Origin: Halapricum desulfuricans
GTDB lineage: Archaea; Halobacteriota; Halobacteria; Halobacteriales; Haloarculaceae
NCBI RefSeq assembly: GCF_017094505.1
Contig: NZ_CP064787.1
Location: 2,790,001 to 2,854,000, forward strand
DNA length: 64,000 bases
Direction of reading: 5' to 3'
Part shown: piece by piece, positions 38,446-49,462 of the stretch
Numbering within the stretch: position 1 is the first letter of the stretch
Layout of the letters: each line of letters begins with the position of its first letter
The notes under the pieces: model-generated
Database searches by the model: none
Seen by the model: the letters and a program-made list of their open reading frames with translations, nothing else
Told to the model about the DNA's origin: nothing
Position numbers and translations under genes: made by a program

Positions 38446-41139
38446 ATGGCTGGGACGGACTGGCACGCAGCGACCGCAGACGAGACACTTGAAGCAGTGG
38501 CGTCGAGCGAAGACGGCCTGTCCACCGACCGGGCGGCGCGTCGTCTCGCCCGGCACGGCCCGAACACGATCGGGGAGGGAGAGGCCATCAGCCCGGCACG
38601 GATCTTTCTCCATCAGTTCACGAGCCCGCTCATCTACGTCCTGCTCGTCGCCTTCGTCGTCACGGTCGCCATCGACCACTACGCCGACGCGATCGTCATC
38701 GCGCTCGTGCTCGTCGTCAACGCGGCCATCGGGTTCGTACAGGAATACCGGGCCGAAAACGCGATGGCGGCGCTGGCGTCGCTCGTCGCGCCGAAGGCAC
38801 GCGTCCGCAGGGACGGTAACGTCTCCAGAATCGACAGCTCGGAGCTGGTTCCCGGTGACATCGTGCTCCTGGAGTCCGGCGACATCGTCCCTGCGGACGT
38901 CCGGCTGGTCCGGACGACCGAGTTACGACTCGACACGTCGATCTTGACCGGCGAGTCGGAACCCGTCCCCCGAACGGCAGAACCCGTCGAAGCGGCACGC
39001 ACGGTCGTCGATCGGCGGAACATGGCCTACATGGGAACGTCGGTCTCGTCGGGGCGGGGCGTCGGTGTCGTGGTCGCGACCGGCGGGGAGAGCCAGATCG
39101 GGACCATCGCGGGGCAGGTTCGAGAGACAGCGCGTGCGACGACGCCGCTCCAGACCCGAATGCGCCGGTTTGGCAACCTGATCAGCGTCGCCGTCCTCGC
39201 AGTCGCGCTCGTCCTGCTCGCCGTCGGGCTCTGGCAAGCGATCCCGCTCGCGGACGTCTTCCTGCTCGCGGTCGCGACGGCGGTCTCGGCCATCCCGGAG
39301 GGATTGCCGGTGGTCATGACGGTCGCGCTCGCCGTCAGCGTCCGCCGGATGGCCGGGCGCAACGCCATCGTCCGGCGGCTTCCCGCCGTCGAAACGCTCG
39401 GCTCCTGTAGCGTCATCGTCTCGGACAAGACGGGGACTATCACCGAGAACCGGATGACAGTCCAGCGGATGTGGACCTCCGACGGGTTCGTCGACGTGAC
39501 CGACGATGGGAGCCCGGGCGAGGGCACGTTCGGCCGGATCCGCGGGGACATCTCGGTCGAGGCGGGGACGACGCTGTACGAGACGTTGCTCGCCGGAGTG
39601 TTGGCGAACGAAGCGTCGCTCGTCGAAACGGACGACGGCGAGCTCGAACCGGTGGGCGATCCCACGGAAGCGGCCCTACTCGTGGCCGGTCGCAAGGCAG
39701 GGCTCGACCAGCGTTCGCTGACTCGCGCCCGTCCACAGATCGGTCACCGCCCGTTCGAGTCGGACCGTCGCTACACCGCGTCCGCGCGGACGATCGGCGA
39801 CCGATCCGTGACCTACGTCAAGGGCGCGCCCGAGCGCGTCGTCGACATGTGCGAGACGATGTCGACGTCGGCCGGGGGAGCCCCGATCGACACCGAGACA
39901 GTGCTCGCGCGCGCCGAGGAACTCGCCGACGACGGGCTCCGTGTCATCGCGATGGCCCGCGGCGACGGGGACCTGACGGATACCGAGGAGCCGGACGGAC
40001 TGACGTTCCTGGGGTTCGCGGGCCTGATCGATCCGCCGCGAGCGGGCGTCTCGGAGGCGATCGAGGCGTGCTCTCGTGCCGGCATCGACGTCAAGATGGT
40101 CACCGGGGATCACGCGGCGACTGCGAGAGCCATCTCCGAACAGGTCGGGATCGACTCCGACCGGGTACTCACGGGCGCGGAGGTGGCTTCGCTCTCCGAC
40201 GACGAACTGACTGCACGCCTCCGGGAGACTGCCGTCTTCGCTCGCATCAGTCCGGTTCAGAAACTTCGGATCGTCACGTTACTCCAGGCCGACGGCGAGA
40301 TCGTGGCCGTCACCGGAGACGGGGTCAACGACGCACCGGCGCTGAAGGCGGCTCACATCGGTGCTGCGATGGGGATCTCCGGCACTGACGTCGCGAAGGA
40401 AGCCAGCGAGATGGTCCTCACGGACGATAATTTCGCCACGGTGTACGCCGCCGTCGAAGAGGGACGGACCGTCTTCTCGAACATCCGCAAGGCGACGATG
40501 TTCCTCCTCGCGACCGGCGTCGCGCTCGTGCTGGCGATTCTCGCTGCATTCTCCCTCGCCGTCGCGGGCGTGCTTCCGCGCGGCGAGACCGGGCTCTTCC
40601 CGCTGCTGCTCTTGCCTGCACAGGCGCTGTGGCTGAACGTCGTCAACAACGGCATTCAGGACGTCGCGCTCGCGTTCGAGCCGGGCGAGCGCGAACAGTT
40701 CGAACGGCCACCCCATCGGCCCGACGAGGGGTTGCTCTCGCGGCAGCTCCTCGAGCGAACTGTCATCGTCGGGGTCTGGCTCGCGGCCCTCGCGCTCGCC
40801 GTCTTCTGGTACGAGTTCACGAACGGGGCGGCGCTCGGATACGCCCAGACGGCCGCCCTGTCGACGATGGTCGTGTCGATGGCGCTGTTTCTCGGGACGT
40901 GTCGCTCCGAGTCGCGCTCCGTGCTCGAGAAGAGCCCGGTCTCGAATCCGCTCCTCTTCGCCGGGACGCTCACGGCACTGGCCGTGCATCTGCTCGCGAT
41001 CCACGCCGCCCCGACGCAACTACTGCTCGGTGTCGAGCCGATCGCGGTCGACACGTGGATCCGTATCCTCGTTCTGTCACCGACAGTGGTGCTCGTCGCC
41101 GAAACGCACAAGCGCTGGCGCACGGCCTCCCGGCCGTGA
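38446..41139 (+). CDS. P-type cation-transporting ATPase (P2-like)
   Basis: An 897-residue ion pump. N-terminal cation-ATPase domain (TADETLEAVASSEDGLSTDRA), actuator loop ILTGESEPV, phosphorylation site SDKTGTITENR, nucleotide domain with KGAPERVVDM, hinge TGDGVNDAPALK, and ten expected helices. M4 has PEGLPVVMT as in calcium pumps. M6 reads LNVVNNGIQDVALAFEPGE, lacking the N-x2-T-D pattern of calcium pumps, so the transported ion (Ca, Na, K or Mn) is uncertain. Coupled to the upstream Usp gene. Confidence 0.92.
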   Translation: MAGTDWHAATADETLEAVASSEDGLSTDRAARRLARHGPNTIGEGEAISPARIFLHQFTSPLIYVLLVAFVVTVAIDHYADAIVIALVLVVNAAIGFVQEYRAENAMAALASLVAPKARVRRDGNVSRIDSSELVPGDIVLLESGDIVPADVRLVRTTELRLDTSILTGESEPVPRTAEPVEAARTVVDRRNMAYMGTSVSSGRGVGVVVATGGESQIGTIAGQVRETARATTPLQTRMRRFGNLISVAVLAVALVLLAVGLWQAIPLADVFLLAVATAVSAIPEGLPVVMTVALAVSVRRMAGRNAIVRRLPAVETLGSCSVIVSDKTGTITENRMTVQRMWTSDGFVDVTDDGSPGEGTFGRIRGDISVEAGTTLYETLLAGVLANEASLVETDDGELEPVGDPTEAALLVAGRKAGLDQRSLTRARPQIGHRPFESDRRYTASARTIGDRSVTYVKGAPERVVDMCETMSTSAGGAPIDTETVLARAEELADDGLRVIAMARGDGDLTDTEEPDGLTFLGFAGLIDPPRAGVSEAIEACSRAGIDVKMVTGDHAATARAISEQVGIDSDRVLTGAEVASLSDDELTARLRETAVFARISPVQKLRIVTLLQADGEIVAVTGDGVNDAPALKAAHIGAAMGISGTDVAKEASEMVLTDDNFATVYAAVEEGRTVFSNIRKATMFLLATGVALVLAILAAFSLAVAGVLPRGETGLFPLLLLPAQALWLNVVNNGIQDVALAFEPGEREQFERPPHRPDEGLLSRQLLERTVIVGVWLAALALAVFWYEFTNGAALGYAQTAALSTMVVSMALFLGTCRSESRSVLEKSPVSNPLLFAGTLTALAVHLLAIHAAPTQLLLGVEPIAVDTWIRILVLSPTVVLVAETHKRWRTASRP

Positions 41140-41208
41140 CAGCGACGGGTCACGTCCGGACCCGGAGTTCTCCGTAAGCACTATGCCCGCAGCCACCTCG
41201 GTTCCGGT

Positions 41209-43581
41209 GTGGCCTCTCACGCAGACAGCGAGACCGAACTCCCCGTCTCCGAGGTGCTCCCGGAGTTCGCCGACGCCTTTCCCTTCGAGCGGTTCAACCG
41301 GATGCAGACCGAGACGCTGCCGGCGCTGCTCGATCGGTCGGACAACGTCGTCGTGAGCGCGCCGACCGCCAGCGGCAAGACCGCAATCGCCGAGGTCGCG
41401 ATCAGCGAGACGATCCGGGCCGGCGGGACCGCGCTCTTTATCGCTCCGCTTCGCGCGCTCACCAACGAGAAAGAGCGCGAGTGGGAGCGCTTCGAGGAAC
41501 TGGGCTATTCGGTGTACGTCGTCACCGGCGAGCGCGACCTCAACCCGCGCCGGGCCGAGCGCGCGGACGTGCTCGTGATGACCCCCGAGAAGGCCGATTC
41601 CGCCACGCGCAAGCACGACACGCCGCGGTACTCCTTCATTACCGACGTGGACACTTGCGTCATCGACGAGGTGCACCTGCTCGACTCCGAGCGCCGTGGG
41701 TCGGTGCTGGAGGTAACGATCTCGCGGTTCCGGCGGCTCTGTGACCCCCGGATCGTCGCGCTGTCGGCGACGATGCCCAACGTCGAGGACGTGGCCGACT
41801 GGCTCGACGCCCCGCCGGAGACGACCTTCGAGTTCGGCGAGTCCTACCGGCCGGTCCCGCTCAACGCCGACGTCAAGACCTACACGCACGGCGACAACGC
41901 CTTCGCCGACAAGTACCGCCGGCTCTATCGCGCGATGGACCTCGTCGAACCCCACCTCGAAGACGACGGGCAGGCGCTGGTCTTCGTCTCCTCGCGACAA
42001 GACACCGTCCAGGCCGCCAAGAAGGCCCGCGACGAACTGGTCGAACGCGATATCCCGATGGGCGCGCGCGGCGACTACGACTTCCACAACGACGCCGCCG
42101 AGCTGAGCAACGACACGCTCCGCCAGTCGGTGCTCGACGGCGTCGCCTTCCATCACGCCGGCCTCTCGCGGGACGACAAGAACCGCGTCGAGCAGTGGTT
42201 TCGCGAGGGGAAGATCCAGTTGCTGTTCTCGACGTCGACGCTCGCCTGGGGCGTGAACCTGCCCGCCCGCTGTGTCGTGATCCGGGACACGAAGTACCAC
42301 GATCCGCTCGAAGGTGAGGTCGACATGAGCCCGCTGGACGTCCTCCAGATGCTCGGGCGAGCGGGCCGGCCCGGTTACGACGACACCGGCTACGCCTGGG
42401 TGATCGCCGACCGGGGCGAGGCCGACAAGTACCGGCGGCTGCTTCGGGACGGCAAGGACATCGAGTCGCGGCTGGCCGAGGACCTCGAGTCCCACCTCAA
42501 CGCCGAGATCGCGATGGGGACGATCGACGACCTGGAGGACGTGCTCTCGTGGCTGGAGACGACCTTCTATCACGTCCGGGCCGAGAGCGCCCCCGAGCAG
42601 TACGCCAGCGCCGGGGACTTCCGCGAGCACGCCTCGCGGACGCTGCGCGGGCTGGTCGATCGCGGCTTCATCGAGATGGACGAGGACCTCTCGGTCGACG
42701 CGACGGCGCTGGGCCGACTCGCCTCGAAGTTCTACCTGCGTCTCGACACCGCCCGGTCGTTCGCGGACCTGGCCGAAGCGGCCGACGGACTGACCGACGA
42801 CGCCGTCCTCAGATCCGTCGCGCAGGCCGGCGCCTTCGACAGCGTCTCGGCCCGACAGGACGAATCGGACGCCGTCGATGCAGTGCTTGGCAGTCGCGGC
42901 GAGTCGCTCGATCCCGGCCCGCGAAAGGTGTACGCGATCCTCCGGTCGGGGATGAACGACACCGTCCCCTCGGAGCTGAAAAGCGACGCCTGGGTGATCC
43001 GCCAGAACGCGCTCCGTCTGCTGGCCGCGCTGCAGGCGTTTCTCGATCGGTTCGCAGGTGCCCGTGCCGCCAATCTGGCCCGCCGGGTCGAGGCCCGCGT
43101 CGAGCACGGCCTCAGCGAAGGCGCAGTCGGGCTGACGGCGATCGACGGCGTCGGCTCCGGTCGGGCGAAAACGCTCGCGGCCGCCGGCTTCGCGACGCCG
43201 ACCGACGTGGTCGACGCCGACCGGGACGAACTGGTCGCCGCCGGCCTGAGCGACGGCGTCGCCGAACGGATTCAGGGACACGCCGGGGACCTCCCCAGAG
43301 TCGTCGTCGAGTGGGGATCGTTCCCCGAGACGATCGCCCGCGGCGACAACAGCATGCAGGAAGTTACCGTCCGCAACGTCGCCGGCGGTGCCCGCGCCGG
43401 CGTCCGGGTCACGGTCAACGGCGTCGAGATGACCGCAACCGACTGCTATCTCGGCGAGACGACGCTCCCGGTCGGCGTCTTCGGTGGCGACGCCGACGAA
43501 CTCACCTTCCGGGTCGAGATCGCCTATCCCGAACTCCCGATCCAGCCGGTCGTCGAAACGCGGTCCGTTGACGTTTCGTAG
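41209..43581 (+). CDS. Ski2-like superfamily 2 helicase (Brr2/ASCC3-like)
   Basis: A 790-residue helicase. Q-type region FNRMQTETLPALL, Walker A APTASGKTAI, Ib APLRALTNEKE, DEVH box IDEVHLLDSE, motif III LSATMPN, IV LVFVSSRQ, V STSTLAWGVNLPA and VI QMLGRAGRPGYDD. Then a winged helix, a Sec63-type helical region (about 520-640), helix-hairpin-helix DGVGSGRAKTLAAAGF and a C-terminal beta-sandwich (about 710-790). It resembles Brr2/ASCC3/MER3 helicases more than Hel308; role likely in DNA or RNA remodelling. GTG start at 41209; the nearby ATG 41183 is out of frame. Confidence 0.9.
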   Translation: MASHADSETELPVSEVLPEFADAFPFERFNRMQTETLPALLDRSDNVVVSAPTASGKTAIAEVAISETIRAGGTALFIAPLRALTNEKEREWERFEELGYSVYVVTGERDLNPRRAERADVLVMTPEKADSATRKHDTPRYSFITDVDTCVIDEVHLLDSERRGSVLEVTISRFRRLCDPRIVALSATMPNVEDVADWLDAPPETTFEFGESYRPVPLNADVKTYTHGDNAFADKYRRLYRAMDLVEPHLEDDGQALVFVSSRQDTVQAAKKARDELVERDIPMGARGDYDFHNDAAELSNDTLRQSVLDGVAFHHAGLSRDDKNRVEQWFREGKIQLLFSTSTLAWGVNLPARCVVIRDTKYHDPLEGEVDMSPLDVLQMLGRAGRPGYDDTGYAWVIADRGEADKYRRLLRDGKDIESRLAEDLESHLNAEIAMGTIDDLEDVLSWLETTFYHVRAESAPEQYASAGDFREHASRTLRGLVDRGFIEMDEDLSVDATALGRLASKFYLRLDTARSFADLAEAADGLTDDAVLRSVAQAGAFDSVSARQDESDAVDAVLGSRGESLDPGPRKVYAILRSGMNDTVPSELKSDAWVIRQNALRLLAALQAFLDRFAGARAANLARRVEARVEHGLSEGAVGLTAIDGVGSGRAKTLAAAGFATPTDVVDADRDELVAAGLSDGVAERIQGHAGDLPRVVVEWGSFPETIARGDNSMQEVTVRNVAGGARAGVRVTVNGVEMTATDCYLGETTLPVGVFGGDADELTFRVEIAYPELPIQPVVETRSVDVS

Positions 43582-43719
43582 GCTCTTGTTCGCTGATCGC
43601 TCTCTTCGAGACCGTTCGGCGCGGCGCCATGCGGTGCGAACAGACCGGCGTAACGGGCACAGCCTCTCCTGCGCGGGAAACCGCCCGCCTTTTTGACGGT
43701 GCTGCCCCACCAGTGGCAT

Positions 43720-44778
43720 ATGCGGGTCGCGTTCGTCTCGATGGAGACAACTCGTCACGACGACAGCGGGGGCACGCGCCGACTCGAGCGACTCGCCCGT
43801 CTGCTCGCCGAACGCGGCCACGACGTGACCGTCTTCTGCGCACGGTCCTGGGACGGCGAACGCGAGACGGCGACCGACGCCGGCGTCGTCTATCACGGCG
43901 TGACCGACGGGCCCGCACAGACGTCGTTCGCGCTTCGGCTCCCGTGGGCGCTGAGCCGGTTCGATCCCGACGTGATCCACGCGCTCTCGACGCCCGCCTC
44001 ACAGGTCGTCGCCGCGAATTTCGGCGGGACGCTCGCGCGTGCGCCGCTGCTCGTCGAGTGGTTCGGCGACAGCGACCCCTCCGGGTCGCGGTGGGCAGGA
44101 CGTGCCCGCTCTGTCCCCGACCGGATCGTCACGCCCTCCGAACTGGTCCGGACCGGACTCCGCGAGCGCGGCGTCGCAGACGAGCGCCTGCGGACGCTCC
44201 CCGAGAGCATCGACATGGACCTCGTCCGCTCGGTCGACCCGGCCGAGGACGTCGACGTCGCGTTCGCGCACCCGCTCGACGAAACGGCCAACGTCAAGAG
44301 CCTCCTGCTGGGGCTGGCCGAACTCCGCGACCGCGAGTGGTCCGCGACAATCATCGGCGACGGGCCCGCCCGCGAGGAGTACGAACGGGAGGTCGAGGAC
44401 CTGCGGATCGGCGACCGCGTCGAGTTCGTCGGCGAGTGTTCGCGCGAACGACGACTGTCGATCTACAGGGGGGCTCACGCGTTCGTCCAGACGGCCTACC
44501 GCGAACAGTTCGCCACCGAGTTGCTGTGGGCGCTCGCTGCCGGCTGTGTCGGGATCGTCGAGTATCAGGCCGAATCTAGCGCCCACGAACTGATCGAGAA
44601 CTACGACCGCGGCTTCCGGGTGACGACGCCGCAGCAACTCGCCGACGCGATCGTCGGCGCCGGCGAGTTCGAGCACCTGACGGTCGAGGACTCGTGGGCC
44701 GACTACGACCACGAGGCCGTCCTCGAATCGTACCTCGAGCTGTACCGGGACCTGCAGGACGAATACGGCCTGCTTTGA
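43720..44778 (+). CDS. Family 4-type glycosyltransferase
   Basis: A 352-residue GT-B enzyme. N-terminal domain RVAFVSMETTRHDDSGGTRR and AERGHDVTVFCAR, middle RIVTPSELVRTGL, and C-terminal ATIIGDGPAREEYEREV and a donor-site region where the usual GLPxxE is replaced by AAGCVGIVEYQAESSAHELI. It likely transfers sugar to lipid or glycoprotein intermediates. No other glycosylation genes are adjacent. ATG 43720 matches the family N-terminus. Confidence 0.88.
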   Translation: MRVAFVSMETTRHDDSGGTRRLERLARLLAERGHDVTVFCARSWDGERETATDAGVVYHGVTDGPAQTSFALRLPWALSRFDPDVIHALSTPASQVVAANFGGTLARAPLLVEWFGDSDPSGSRWAGRARSVPDRIVTPSELVRTGLRERGVADERLRTLPESIDMDLVRSVDPAEDVDVAFAHPLDETANVKSLLLGLAELRDREWSATIIGDGPAREEYEREVEDLRIGDRVEFVGECSRERRLSIYRGAHAFVQTAYREQFATELLWALAAGCVGIVEYQAESSAHELIENYDRGFRVTTPQQLADAIVGAGEFEHLTVEDSWADYDHEAVLESYLELYRDLQDEYGLL

Positions 44779-44797: not shown

Positions 44798-45850
44798 TCA
44801 CCTGTCGGCGGCCACGTCGATCTCGCCTGCGTCCAGTTCGGCTTCGATCTCGCGGGCCGCCTCGACCATGTTGGCCATCTTCTGGTAGGCGACCTCGCGG
44901 GGCAGCAGCTTCAGGCCACAGTCCGGCGAGACGGTCAACTGTTCGGGCGGAACGACCTCCAGTCCGCGCTTGATGTTGTCCTTGATCTGGTCGACGGACT
45001 CGACCTCGGCGTCGTGGACGTCGACGACGCCCATCGCGAAGTCCTTGGTGAACTCGTGTTCCTTGAAGACCTCGACCTGCTCGAAGTCGCCGTTGGCCAG
45101 TTCGAGGTCGAGTTCCTCGACCGGGAACTCGAGGATCTCGGGGTAGATCCGCGAGTAGTCGCCGTAACAGACGTGCAGTCCCAGACGGACATCCGCAGGC
45201 ACGTCTTCGACGATCCGTTCGAGGGCCTCGCCGACGATGGCGTGGTCGTCGGGCGTCGTCGCCAGCGCGGGCTCGTCGATCTGGATGTACCGCGCCCCGG
45301 CCTCGACCAGCGCCTCGATCTCCTGGTTGACCAGGTCCGCAAGCGCGTAGGTCAACTGCTCCTCGTCGTCGTAGACCTCGTTGAAACTCCAGGACGCAAG
45401 CGTGTAGGGACCGGTGATCGGGACCTTCACGGGTGCGTCGGCGACCTCGTCGGTGAACTCGAACTCCTCGACCAGCCACTGCTCGTCGTACTCGACCTGA
45501 TCGACCACGGAGGGCTTGTCGAAGTAGTTGTGTCCCCAGACCTTCACCCGACCGTTGAACTCGTAGCCGTCGATCCGGTGGGCGAAGTACTCGACCATCT
45601 CGTTGCGCCGCATCTCGCCGTCCGTGACGGCGTCGATTCCCGCTCGCTCGTGCTCGTCGGTGATCAGCCGGGCGGCGTCGTCCTTGGACTCTTCCCAGTC
45701 CTCGACGTCGAACTCCGAGTCGGGATCCTCGAAGAGTTCCCGGGCCGTGTCGTGCCACTCGGGCTTTGGGTAGGAGCCGACGACGGTCGTCAGCAGGAAG
45801 TGGTCGTTGGGGTGATCATCGGGTCGGAACTGCTCGCGCGTGTCCGTCAT
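44798..45850 (-). CDS. Methionine synthase, catalytic (C-terminal MetE-like) protein
   Basis: A 350-residue cobalamin-independent methionine synthase catalytic domain. TTVVGSYPKP start, DGEMRRNEMVEYF, YIQIDEPALATTP, and the zinc ligands HVCYGDYSRI and SPDCGLKLLPRE. Bacterial MetE has an extra N-terminal barrel; in archaea the domains are separate. The upstream gene encodes a related protein without zinc ligands. Methyl donor in haloarchaea is unclear (folate or other). The ATG overlaps the stop of the upstream gene by 4 bp. Confidence 0.93.
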   Translation of the reverse strand: MTDTREQFRPDDHPNDHFLLTTVVGSYPKPEWHDTARELFEDPDSEFDVEDWEESKDDAARLITDEHERAGIDAVTDGEMRRNEMVEYFAHRIDGYEFNGRVKVWGHNYFDKPSVVDQVEYDEQWLVEEFEFTDEVADAPVKVPITGPYTLASWSFNEVYDDEEQLTYALADLVNQEIEALVEAGARYIQIDEPALATTPDDHAIVGEALERIVEDVPADVRLGLHVCYGDYSRIYPEILEFPVEELDLELANGDFEQVEVFKEHEFTKDFAMGVVDVHDAEVESVDQIKDNIKRGLEVVPPEQLTVSPDCGLKLLPREVAYQKMANMVEAAREIEAELDAGEIDVAADR

Positions 45851-46842
45851 GCTGTCACCTCCTCGGCGTCGGCCGCGCCGGCGAGCGCCCGGAGTTTCTC
45901 CTCGAACTTGTTGACCGGCAGGTAGAACAGTTCGGTGTTGGCGGTCGCGTAGATCGTCTCGAAGTCGGTGGTCGTCCGGTCGTCGACCCACTCGATGCGC
46001 TCGCGGATCTCGCCGGGCGTCTCGACCAGCGTGTTCTGGCCGTCGACGACGCCCAGCGCGATCGAGTCCTTCGTACCGTACTCGTTGATGTTGTAGAGGT
46101 TCTGTTCGTGGTCGGTCACGAAGTCGTAGCCGACGGCATCGATATCGGCATCGAGCAGGTGGGCGTGGACCTTCTCTTCGAGCGCGCCCCAGTAGGTCTG
46201 GACGACCACGTCGGTATCGAGCGCCGACGCGACGGTGTCGATCGCGTCGCTGGCGCGTTCGTCCTCGCCGTCGTCGGGTGTGTCGGTGACGAGCGAGGGT
46301 TCGAGCAACAGAAGCGTCTCCACGTCGGGGAACTGCTCGGCCTCGCCGGCCAGGAAGTCCGCGACGGCGTCCAGAAACGCGGCGTCGTCGCCGTAGTGCT
46401 CGTCGGTCGCAAGTTCGGCCAGCGAATACGGGCCCGGAAGCACGGCCTGCAGACCGGCCCCGACCTGTTCGTCCGCTGCCGTCAACTCCGCCGCGACGTC
46501 GCCGTCGGCCGTCAGCTCGCCGGTGACGACGGGCTCTCGATAGAAGTTGTTGTTGTCGTAATATCGAACGATGCCGCGGGTTTCGACGCTGTCGTGGACC
46601 GCCAGCGGGTGTGCGAGCATGTCGTCCCAGCGCAGCTGTCCCTCGACGATCCGGTCGAGCCCGGCCGACTGCTGGCTCTCGATGACCTCGGATCGCGCCT
46701 CCTCGTAGACGGCGACGACCGCATCGCTCTCGTCACCGCCGATCAGATCGCTTCGCTGGTGGCCTTTCAACTTCGACAGTTCGTCTTTCGCCCAGTCCGG
46801 TAACGGATACAGTCCCGGCGTCGTCGATACGATCTCTGCCAT
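45847..46842 (-). CDS. MetE-like partner protein of methionine synthase
   Basis: A 331-residue barrel protein related to MetE: TTPGLYPLPDWAKDEL, EGQLRWDDMLAHPLAVHD, AVLPGPYSLAEL, GYDFVTDHEQNL, LGVVDGQNTLVETP. Zinc-binding His/Cys of the catalytic half are missing, so it probably binds the methyl donor or supports the partner. Co-transcribed with the catalytic gene by a 4-bp overlap. TATA-like TTTAATATTTAC lies about 30 bp upstream (46868-46880), implying a leaderless start at 46842. Confidence 0.88.
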   Translation of the reverse strand: MAEIVSTTPGLYPLPDWAKDELSKLKGHQRSDLIGGDESDAVVAVYEEARSEVIESQQSAGLDRIVEGQLRWDDMLAHPLAVHDSVETRGIVRYYDNNNFYREPVVTGELTADGDVAAELTAADEQVGAGLQAVLPGPYSLAELATDEHYGDDAAFLDAVADFLAGEAEQFPDVETLLLLEPSLVTDTPDDGEDERASDAIDTVASALDTDVVVQTYWGALEEKVHAHLLDADIDAVGYDFVTDHEQNLYNINEYGTKDSIALGVVDGQNTLVETPGEIRERIEWVDDRTTTDFETIYATANTELFYLPVNKFEEKLRALAGAADAEEVTA

Positions 46843-46897: not shown

Positions 46898-48817
46898 TCA
46901 GTTATTTTCTTCGAGCGCGAGATCGGCCAGTCCGTCCGTATCGACGAGATCGAGCAGGTCCGCGAAATCGAGGAGTTTGACGCCGTGTCTGTCCGCGCGC
47001 TCTCGCACCGGGTCGGGGACGGTCGCCGTCGTGACGATCGCGGCGGCGTCGGCCCGCCGGACGTTGTCGCGGTCAGTCACGCACCGATCGACGACCGACG
47101 GATCGAGGTCGCCGCCGGGGTCGTGGATCGTCCAGATCACCACCCGGAGATCGACCAGTCGCCTGCGGATCGCCATCACGTCGTACTGCCCCCGCGATTG
47201 TGCGAAGATCGTCGTCTCCCAGCCGAGTTCGTTCCAGCACGCCGCGACGAACCGCCTGAAGGCCGCCTCGTCCATCGCCCGGATCTCCGCCTCGATCGCG
47301 ACGCGATCGCGCTCGGCGTCGGGGAACCCGGACTCGTCGGACGACTGTTCGCGGACGGCGTCGCCGTCGTGGCCGTGGTCTCGCTCTGACCGCGCCGGGT
47401 CGGCCGCCTTCGTCGTCACGCCCGCGACGGTCTTCGTCGAGACACCGGAGTCGGGACCCGCGGACGGCGGTTCACCCGACTCGGCCCGATCGTCCGACAC
47501 GGAGCCGTCCTCGGCCCGGCCGGCCTCGCGTTCGATCAGGGCGCGCTCGTGGTCGATCTCGACGCGCGTCGCCCGGAGCGCGTCGTCGCGATCGGGGGCC
47601 AGTTCGGAGACGAGGTCACTGGCCGCGTCAAGTTGCTCGTCGGCCCGGTCACACGCCGACAGCGCCTGTCCGGTTCGGCCGCCCGCCCGGAGTCGTTCGG
47701 CGGCCGCGAGCAGTCGGTCGATAACGGCCGTCCGCGCGTCGACGGTCTCGTCGACGATCTCCAGAATCGCCGCCCGGACCTCGTCGGGATCGCCGGCGAA
47801 CGGCGAACTCGGCCCCCAGCAGTGGCCGAGCCAGTCCCGATGCGCCGCGAGCGCGTCGGCCAGCCGCCGGGCGCGCCGTTCGGGGTCGTCGACCGACCGG
47901 GCGTCCTCGAGCGCTGTCTTCGCACGCTCGCGGGGCCGGGTTTCGAGTCGGTCGCGGTCGCGCTCGACGGTCTCGATTCGCTCTCGAAGTCGCTCGTCAG
48001 GAGGCTCGTCGGCGTCGATCGAGAGGGCCCGTTCGGCGGCGTCCCGTGCGGCTTCGAGCGCGTCGTGAGCCGCCCGGAGCCGCCCGTCTCTCTCGGCGCG
48101 CTCGCCGCGTTCGACGTGTTCGTCGGCTGTGTCGGCGAGCGCGCGTCGCTGGATCGCCCTGACGTCCGCGCGGTACGCGTCGAACTCGGCGTGATCGAGC
48201 ACGCGATCGCCGAGATCGAGCGCACGTATCTCCTCGCGTCCGCTGGCGATCGCCGAGACTGCCGCGTCGGCCGCGTCGCGCGCACCGGCCGGATCGCCGG
48301 CGTCGAGACGGTCCCGGGCGGTCGCGAGGTGGTCTTCGACGCGGACCGCGAACCGGTTCGCCCGCGACCACGTCTCCCGTGCCGTCTCCAGGTACACCAC
48401 GACCGGATCGAGGTCGCTCCCGGCCGGCATCGACCACCGCTCGCCGGCCTCGGTCCGGACGACCAGCCGCTCGCGCAACAGTCCGCTGTCGGTCTCGACC
48501 CGCGTGACGGTCGAGAGCGGAATCGGAACCACCCGATCGCCGTCCTCGTCCGCGCCCCCGAGCGCGATCACGACGCGCAGATCGGTGACCGCGACGACGG
48601 TCCTGTACCCTCGACCCGGCTTGTAGGTCTCCGCTCCTCCGTCGCGTTCGACGGTCACACCCCCACGTTTCGCGTGCAGGACGAACGCAACTGTTTCCGC
48701 GTTTCCCAGATACGACGACAGCGGCCCCTCCGCGAGATACCCCCCGCCGAGGCGCTCGTCGACCCGCTCGTTCGAGCGCGAGCGCTCCTCTCGCGGCAAC
48801 TCGATGATCTCGGCCAT
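46898..48817 (-). CDS. PH-like/coiled-coil/degenerate Mrr-type nuclease fusion
   Basis: A 639-residue protein of unusual build. Residues about 25-125 look like a PH or GRAM-type beta domain (YLGNAETVAFVLHAKRGGVT; VVAVTDLRVVIAL). About 140-420 is charged and helical with repeated EARDAAERALS-like segments, probably coiled coil. A low-complexity acidic linker (about 430-510) follows. The C-terminus (about 525-635; AFRRFVAACWNELGWETTIF, GQYDVMAIRRR) matches the Mrr-type restriction endonuclease fold. The acid of GxxD is kept, but the usual Q-x-K is replaced by WTIH, so cleavage activity is doubtful. Function unknown. Confidence 0.82.
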   Translation of the reverse strand: MAEIIELPREERSRSNERVDERLGGGYLAEGPLSSYLGNAETVAFVLHAKRGGVTVERDGGAETYKPGRGYRTVVAVTDLRVVIALGGADEDGDRVVPIPLSTVTRVETDSGLLRERLVVRTEAGERWSMPAGSDLDPVVVYLETARETWSRANRFAVRVEDHLATARDRLDAGDPAGARDAADAAVSAIASGREEIRALDLGDRVLDHAEFDAYRADVRAIQRRALADTADEHVERGERAERDGRLRAAHDALEAARDAAERALSIDADEPPDERLRERIETVERDRDRLETRPRERAKTALEDARSVDDPERRARRLADALAAHRDWLGHCWGPSSPFAGDPDEVRAAILEIVDETVDARTAVIDRLLAAAERLRAGGRTGQALSACDRADEQLDAASDLVSELAPDRDDALRATRVEIDHERALIEREAGRAEDGSVSDDRAESGEPPSAGPDSGVSTKTVAGVTTKAADPARSERDHGHDGDAVREQSSDESGFPDAERDRVAIEAEIRAMDEAAFRRFVAACWNELGWETTIFAQSRGQYDVMAIRRRLVDLRVVIWTIHDPGGDLDPSVVDRCVTDRDNVRRADAAAIVTTATVPDPVRERADRHGVKLLDFADLLDLVDTDGLADLALEENN

Positions 48818-48871: not shown

Positions 48872-49462
48872 TCACTGACTGTCCGGCCGGAGTTCGAGCA
48901 CGACGAGTCGCTCGAAGGGATGGGATTCGTCGGCGACCTCCCGGGCTGACAGGCCACCGGCTGCCGCGCGCTCGCGCACGGCCTCGACGTCCGTGAGCGA
49001 ACTCACGAGCAGGAGGACGACGCCGTCCTCGGCGAGGACGCGACGGACGGAATCGAGGAACGGATCGATCACCGCACGACCGTCCTCGCCGCCGGAGAGC
49101 GCGCGTTCCATCCAGTCGTCGAACTCCTGTTCGGGCGGGGTCGGCAGGTACGGCGGGTTGAACGCCACGATGTCGAAGACGCCGTCCCGGAACGGCTCGA
49201 CGAGGTTCGCCCGGACGACCGCGAGGCCGGCGTCGCGGGCCTCGCGGCAGGCCATCGGGTTGATGTCCGTCGCGACGACAGCGGCCCCCGTGTCCGCCAG
49301 CGCGGTCGCGACGTACCCCGAGCCGGTTCCCACTTCGAGGACGCGGTCGTCGGCGGTGACGTACTCGCGCGCCGTCTCGGCCAGTAGATGCGAGTCCTCG
49401 GCCGGTTCGTACACCTGATCGAGATCGCGCTGTCTGGCGAGTTCGGGCCGGTCGTCGTTCAT
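48872..49462 (-). CDS. HemK2-type protein glutamine methyltransferase
   Basis: A 196-residue class I methyltransferase. It has YEPAEDSHLLAETA, the SAM loop VLEVGTGSGYVATAL, DINPMACREA and the NPPY motif (AFNPPYLPTPP) that methylates glutamine in release factors. Archaeal members pair with Trm112-like proteins to modify aRF1. It overlaps the mscS-like gene by 4 bp and is the last gene of the rsmA cluster. Confidence 0.92.
   Translation of the reverse strand: MNDDRPELARQRDLDQVYEPAEDSHLLAETAREYVTADDRVLEVGTGSGYVATALADTGAAVVATDINPMACREARDAGLAVVRANLVEPFRDGVFDIVAFNPPYLPTPPEQEFDDWMERALSGGEDGRAVIDPFLDSVRRVLAEDGVVLLLVSSLTDVEAVRERAAAGGLSAREVADESHPFERLVVLELRPDSQ

Follow-up and report, generated by a model that had tools for sequence, protein, structure and literature searches.

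Salactin is an actin that shows dynamic instability and has been implicated in the partitioning of chromosomes; in Halobacterium salinarum its filaments lengthen and shorten from the cell poles (PMC10746226). Cells that lack it distribute their DNA incorrectly when ploidy is low, and the authors of that study propose pulling on a 'kinetochore-like' region of the chromosome (PMC10746226). The synteny of salactin was reported to be poor, and unusable for finding partners (PMC10746226). Degenerate nuclease domains have been described in a different setting: the BREX helicase iREase contains an REase domain with a degenerate motif, which is inactive and has been proposed to serve as a sensor or decoy (PMC12839542).

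The window analysed here is a stretch of 64,000 nucleotides from the Halapricum desulfuricans genome, which is assembled as a single contig of 2.94 Mb. The gene of interest lies on the minus strand as a 639-codon open frame from an ATG start at 48817 down to 46898, and is the only copy of its family in this genome. The principal features are:

46898..48817, minus strand: whole gene, encoding a PH-like / helical / inactive Mrr-like protein of 639 amino acids, with genus orthologues in 6/6 genomes
48353..48736, minus strand: N-terminal PH-like domain (divergent bPH_3), residues about 28–155, from the full-length AlphaFold2 model and Foldseek, with bPH_3 in profile relatives
47507..48352, minus strand: helical middle region, residues about 156–437, of MIT/TPR-like antiparallel helices, specific to the Haloarculaceae
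47303..47506, minus strand: variable, probably disordered linker, residues about 438–505 (pLDDT <50 over 438–505)
46919..47302, minus strand: Mrr-like PD-(D/E)xK fold without the catalytic set, residues about 506–633, from Mrr_cat, AlphaFold2 and Foldseek
48872..49462, minus strand: upstream neighbour, a HemK/PrmA-like methyltransferase, after a gap of 54 bp; kept in the genus and in G003
45847..46842, minus strand: downstream neighbour, a methionine-synthase-like protein, after a gap of 55 bp; kept in the genus

All six genomes of the genus Halapricum have a match to the family, one of them split by assembly or a frameshift, and the orthologue in Halapricum hydrolyticum is 68% identical. The Mrr-like domain is 94, 73, 66 and 56% identical to those of four orthologues, while the linker is 85, 34, 36 and 25% identical to the same four; against H. 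hydrolyticum the linker is 34% identical and the domains 68–84%. Ratios of dN/dS are below 1 throughout; dS shows partial saturation for distant pairs and is low for the nearest one. The gene is therefore real: every genome of the genus matches, and conservation is much stronger in the domains than in the linker. The original prediction of a 639-residue protein at this position thus stands, to which the strand, absent from it, can be added. Elsewhere in the window, a 967-codon open frame (41077–43980, minus strand) lies antisense to a Hel308-like helicase gene at 41209–43581; it is most likely an artefact of GC-rich sequence.

The C-terminus of the protein folds as a nuclease domain of the Mrr/PD-(D/E)xK type. 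Pfam Mrr_cat (PF04471) matches residues 512–624 with E=3.8e-8 and 33.9 bits, against a cut-off of 21. The domain was poor in the full-length model and was for that reason modelled separately; residues 505–633 gave a mean pLDDT of 88.6 and a pTM of 0.84 from three aligned sequences only. In this model a helix and three strands are followed by a helix, a strand, a second such helix and a last strand. Searching with this model, Foldseek found MspJI (E 1.1e-5), AF1548 (5e-5), HindIII and AspBHI and, weakly, NucS/EndoMS. A sequence search of the PDB with the single protein gave no match, while a profile search recovered AF1548 for this domain at only E=0.056 and generic helical matches for the middle region. 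No winged-helix Mrr N-domain was found in the protein. The charge of the C-terminal domain is ordinary for a haloarchaeon and provides no signal of DNA binding.

In the predicted structure the N-terminus is confirmed as a PH fold related to bPH_3. Its Foldseek matches are the PH domains of Vps36, GRK2 and USP37 and the bacterial PH structure 3b77. The window protein itself has no match to Pfam bPH_3 (PF14470); homology was traced by iterated profile, the relatives L058, L060, L064 and L065 exceeding the Pfam cut-off, and the fold by the model. Two of these bPH_3-matching relatives carry a C-terminal SHOCT. L064, from another haloarchaeon, combines bPH_3 with HNH_repeat, PadR-like and HHH_5, and is another build of PH with nucleic-acid domains. 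The middle region is modelled as a series of antiparallel helices, for which matches to MIT and TPR in relatives are sub-threshold only. There is no membrane span in the protein (best 19-residue hydropathy 1.18). The fold assignments of the original prediction are thereby upheld at both ends, PH-like and Mrr-type, the models that it called for having recovered both. Its 'long coiled stretch' is borne out only in part: the region is helical in the model, but coiled coil is not established and the helices appear instead to be antiparallel and MIT/TPR-like.

The catalytic set of the nuclease has been lost at three positions. The residues concerned, together with the one acid that is kept, are:

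47255..47257, minus strand: Arg521, at the position of the catalytic Glu of helix 1 (Glu in 8/8 active-type, 1/51 fused rows)
47180..47182, minus strand: Asp546, the retained acid of GxxD (27/27 in the window gene's subfamily)
47123..47134, minus strand: Trp562-Thr-Ile-His565 (WTIH), replacing Q-x-K-R

Eight standalone relatives, haloarchaeal and from viral contigs, have the Glu of helix 1, the Asp of strand 2 and QAKR. In the window protein the acid is present in G543-Q-Y-D546 and the strand-3 motif reads W562-T-I-H565, just as the original prediction had it; the replacement of the helix-1 Glu by Arg521 is a third loss that it missed. Fifty relatives with the PH-helical-Mrr build were aligned (one more, L076, is split). 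None of these fused proteins, all from the Haloarculaceae, has the catalytic Lys in register (0/50), and none has Gln or Glu in register at the first position of strand 3 (0/50); Asp (or Glu) is retained on strand 2 in 44/50. D/E/N/Q-x-K is wholly absent from strand 3 in 49/51 fused rows, and an out-of-register E-H-K (WTEHKPG) occurs in two near-identical relatives only. The most divergent rows may be misaligned by 1–2 residues near strand 3, and the conclusion is independent of that.

The replacement motif is itself conserved. All Halapricum-group orthologues have WTIH, WTVH, WAVH or WVVH, members of the window gene's subfamily in other genera have W-T-x-H, and within the W-x-x-H set His565 and Trp562 are each present in 13/13. 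A local mutation or sequencing error is ruled out by the presence of WTIH-like motifs in the orthologues. This conservation, which the original prediction had named as the check on its proposal of a non-cutting protein derived from a nuclease, supports that proposal, and the window protein is almost certainly non-cutting. The fused domains form one clade against all standalone domains (support 99/98, in a tree from which the motif columns were omitted). Since the fused domains, all of them dead, lie in a single clade, one inactivation at or before the fusion would be the simplest account of the sequences. A second class of dead Mrr domain, standalone and of separate origin in the tree, is found in L020, L028 and L029; here Q-x-K has become W-A-I (or W-A-T) and strand 2 has no acid, and L020 additionally carries DUF4352.

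Of 146 Haloarculaceae genomes, 96 have a member of the PH-helical family, counting in a few weak matches to the PH part alone. In a set of 292 genomes from across the class, the family is confined to the Haloarculaceae. A tree of the PH-helical part, from a quick search with SH-aLRT support only, separates a salactin-adjacent set (SAL-type) from a 35-row set (96) that holds the window gene (W-type). The dead nuclease domain is present in both types and was later lost in several lineages. We propose that the two subfamilies arose by an early duplication. G196 and G197 carry both types, and their SAL-type copies (L077, L079) lie directly after salactin. One member of the family (L052, in G125) has an in-frame stop, and L076/L078 (G197) contain a frame break that may be an assembly fault.

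The link to salactin was found by clustering of gene neighbours. Many of the fused genes follow a gene of ~370 aa that PF25229 identifies as salactin (E about 1e-183 to 1e-190, in one case 4.3e-190). Salactin and the family occur together in 70 genomes; in 46 of these, across 7 genera, the SAL-type gene is found 134–630 bp downstream of salactin in the same orientation; these distances run between matched segments, and the true gaps are somewhat shorter. When the two match lists are compared, all genomes of at least 90% completeness with a strong family match have salactin. The family is not a universal partner of salactin, since salactin is found in many haloarchaea that lack the family (g4, g67, g68 and other families). 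In g3 (L110, L112) salactin and the SAL-type gene are separated by an apparently conserved opposite-strand ORF of about 65–70 codons; because of this small ORF only adjacency, and not an operon, is claimed. On the other side of salactin, the gene directly before it, in the same orientation, is a small Arch_fla_DE gene (ArlD/E-like, PF04659) in 29 of 39 salactin loci, which come from several haloarchaeal families (loci L231–L269; for example L122:3242-3742). An archaellum-motor-type domain, polar in nature, beside a pole-grown actin is worth a study of its own.

The W-type gene is never an immediate neighbour of salactin. Salactin and the window gene are 1.2 Mb apart in the genome analysed here; in four g8 genomes the W-type gene is 3–5 kb from salactin, g8 being without adjacent SAL-type genes. 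The single-gene context without a partner described by the original prediction therefore applies to this locus only. Across the family salactin recurs as a neighbour, and within the window gene's own subfamily NucS, MutS and DUF7090 adjoin it in other genera.

Our preferred reading, to which we assign a probability of roughly 0.4, is that the protein is a soluble, non-enzymatic tether or adaptor, coupling DNA or a DNA-bound partner to salactin and the chromosome-partitioning machinery, or to the envelope, without cutting. On this view, a single inactivation in the ancestor of this family of Haloarculaceae proteins would have removed the catalytic Glu, Gln/Glu and Lys from the Mrr-type nuclease domain, which would have persisted as a module for binding, most probably of DNA and otherwise of protein, as its fold suggests. 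A flexible linker would join it to a helical rod with the PH-like domain at the far end; from its fold, that domain may dock on a membrane or protein site. The predicted parts, a domain for docking, a rod, a linker able to flex and a nuclease fold that no longer cuts, fit a tether. Counting against it, the dead nuclease domain appears to be dispensable in several SAL-type lineages, which have lost it. The SAL-type protein, encoded directly downstream of salactin, probably works with salactin, and a salactin-related role for this subfamily is somewhat better than an even prospect. The W-type protein, including that of the window, retains an Asp-Trp-His pocket and is encoded beside core DNA-maintenance or housekeeping genes; it may do the same kind of job as the SAL-type, and a salactin-related role for it is put forward only tentatively. 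A bolder version is unlikely: that the Haloarculaceae family is the missing link from salactin filaments to the chromosome or cell pole, a ParR- or kinetochore-like adaptor made from an inactivated restriction-type nuclease and a PH-like anchor, with the W-type a second version unlinked to salactin and having a remodelled Asp-Trp-His pocket.

The W-type site has not simply decayed, as its residues are conserved within the subfamily. Asp is present in 27/27 W-type sequences, Trp in 20/27, His in 19/27 and Arg558 in 22/27; in the SAL-type (n=24) Asp is present in 16/24 and Trp in 0/24. In the model, the Asp opens strand 2 and the Trp is on strand 3, both where the nuclease site was. Asp546, Trp562 and His565, with Arg558, might on this basis form a new site for ligand or metal binding or for catalysis, peculiar to the W-type. 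Such a repurposed pocket is improbable; the conservation may be structural, and Trp is absent in 7/27 and His in 8/27 of the W-type sequences.

The genes beside the W-type copies in other genera would be compatible with a role in DNA repair. W-type genes adjoin NucS and MutS in 6/6 loci of g3, 2/2 loci of g77 and several of g8 (W-type loci between NucS/MutS and their neighbours are L137, L138, L141–L143, L130, L043–L044, L066–L067 and L070–L071). The order in g8 and g77 is MutS, NucS, W-type, DUF7090, GlmM, and in four genomes of g8 salactin follows; DUF7090 starts just past the W-type gene on the same strand. A non-cutting DNA binder might thus aid mismatch processing of the NucS/MutS type or recognise odd DNA structures with no connection to the cytoskeleton, and the weak Foldseek match to NucS/EndoMS is consistent with this. 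However, NucS is transcribed divergently from the W-type gene, in g3 the copies next to NucS no longer have any Mrr-like domain, and Halapricum and G003 have HemK/KsgA in place of NucS. The window protein matches neither NucS_N nor NucS_C in Pfam, the genuine NucS having been identified separately. A repair accessory of this kind is unlikely.

At the window locus itself the neighbours are housekeeping genes. Beyond the HemK/PrmA-like gene lie MscS, KsgA and DUF655, upstream on the strand of the window gene, and methionine-synthase-like genes lie downstream. This order is conserved in 4/4 other Halapricum-group loci examined, and KsgA-HemK is also found beside a relative in G003, which is another genus; the window gene's subfamily is inherited vertically, beside HemK/KsgA/MetE here and beside NucS/MutS in other genera. 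The same-strand string, with its gaps of 54–55 bp on both sides and its conservation in the genus, would suit a scaffold working with the co-directional KsgA, HemK-like, MscS and methionine synthase proteins, for instance in the upkeep of ribosomes or the envelope, and without a role on DNA. Yet in other genera the gene is elsewhere (with NucS/MutS or DUF7090/GlmM) and the sister subfamily follows salactin, and we consider such a scaffold slightly less likely than the repair accessory.

The same surroundings bear on host defence, which the original prediction had offered as a possibility and which the data do not favour. An inactive REase domain could sense nucleotides or nucleic acids or divert phage inhibitors, in the manner proposed for the inactive domains of BREX-type systems (PMC12839542), and Pfam NA-iREase1 (PF22722) is matched weakly by two relatives, L008 (E=0.009) and L020 (E=0.0019). 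Against this, the window protein has no match to PF22722, PADLOC or NCBIfam, and no NACHT-type or other NTPase and no effector is adjacent. Its neighbours are core genes held in strict vertical synteny. Those tried as defence genes, KsgA, HemK and the helicase, were rejected, giving only generic helicase and methyltransferase domain matches in PADLOC. A phage or mobile origin was rejected in turn, a search of viral contigs having found no relative of the window protein; a scan of viral contigs with L144 also gave no match. An Mrr of the active type is all that was found on one viral contig (L072). A defence sensor or decoy is as improbable as the repurposed pocket.

Salactin is one of few archaeal actins with known dynamics, and a recurrent neighbour is a concrete candidate for its anchor or cargo, here combining a predicted anchor (PH) with a predicted nucleic-acid module (dead Mrr). 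The family is also a clear case of a restriction-nuclease domain inactivated once, spread by descent and kept in a setting of housekeeping and not of defence.

The window protein resembles five known systems in part. With the Mrr-type REase catalytic domain (PF04471) it shares the fold, a match above cut-off, the Asp of strand 2 and the GW and VTT core motifs, but its catalytic Glu, Gln/Glu and Lys are replaced and it is fused to PH-like and helical regions. Like bPH_3 (PF14470) it has a PH fold in the model, and profile relatives match above cut-off, two with SHOCT; unlike bPH_3 it falls below detection itself, and a helical rod and dead nuclease follow in place of SHOCT. NucS/EndoMS has the same order of a PH-like and then a nuclease-like fold and adjoins W-type genes in some genera, whereas the window protein has a helical insert of 280 residues, no catalytic set and no NucS match in Pfam. 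NA-iREase1 and the BREX iREase (PMC12839542) likewise keep as a module an REase fold with a degenerate catalytic motif; the window protein differs in lacking a NACHT or helicase partner and in being inherited vertically beside core genes. As for the salactin system (PF25229; PMC10746226), the window gene is not adjacent to salactin and no such partner was found in the salactin paper, but its sister subfamily lies downstream of salactin in 7 genera.
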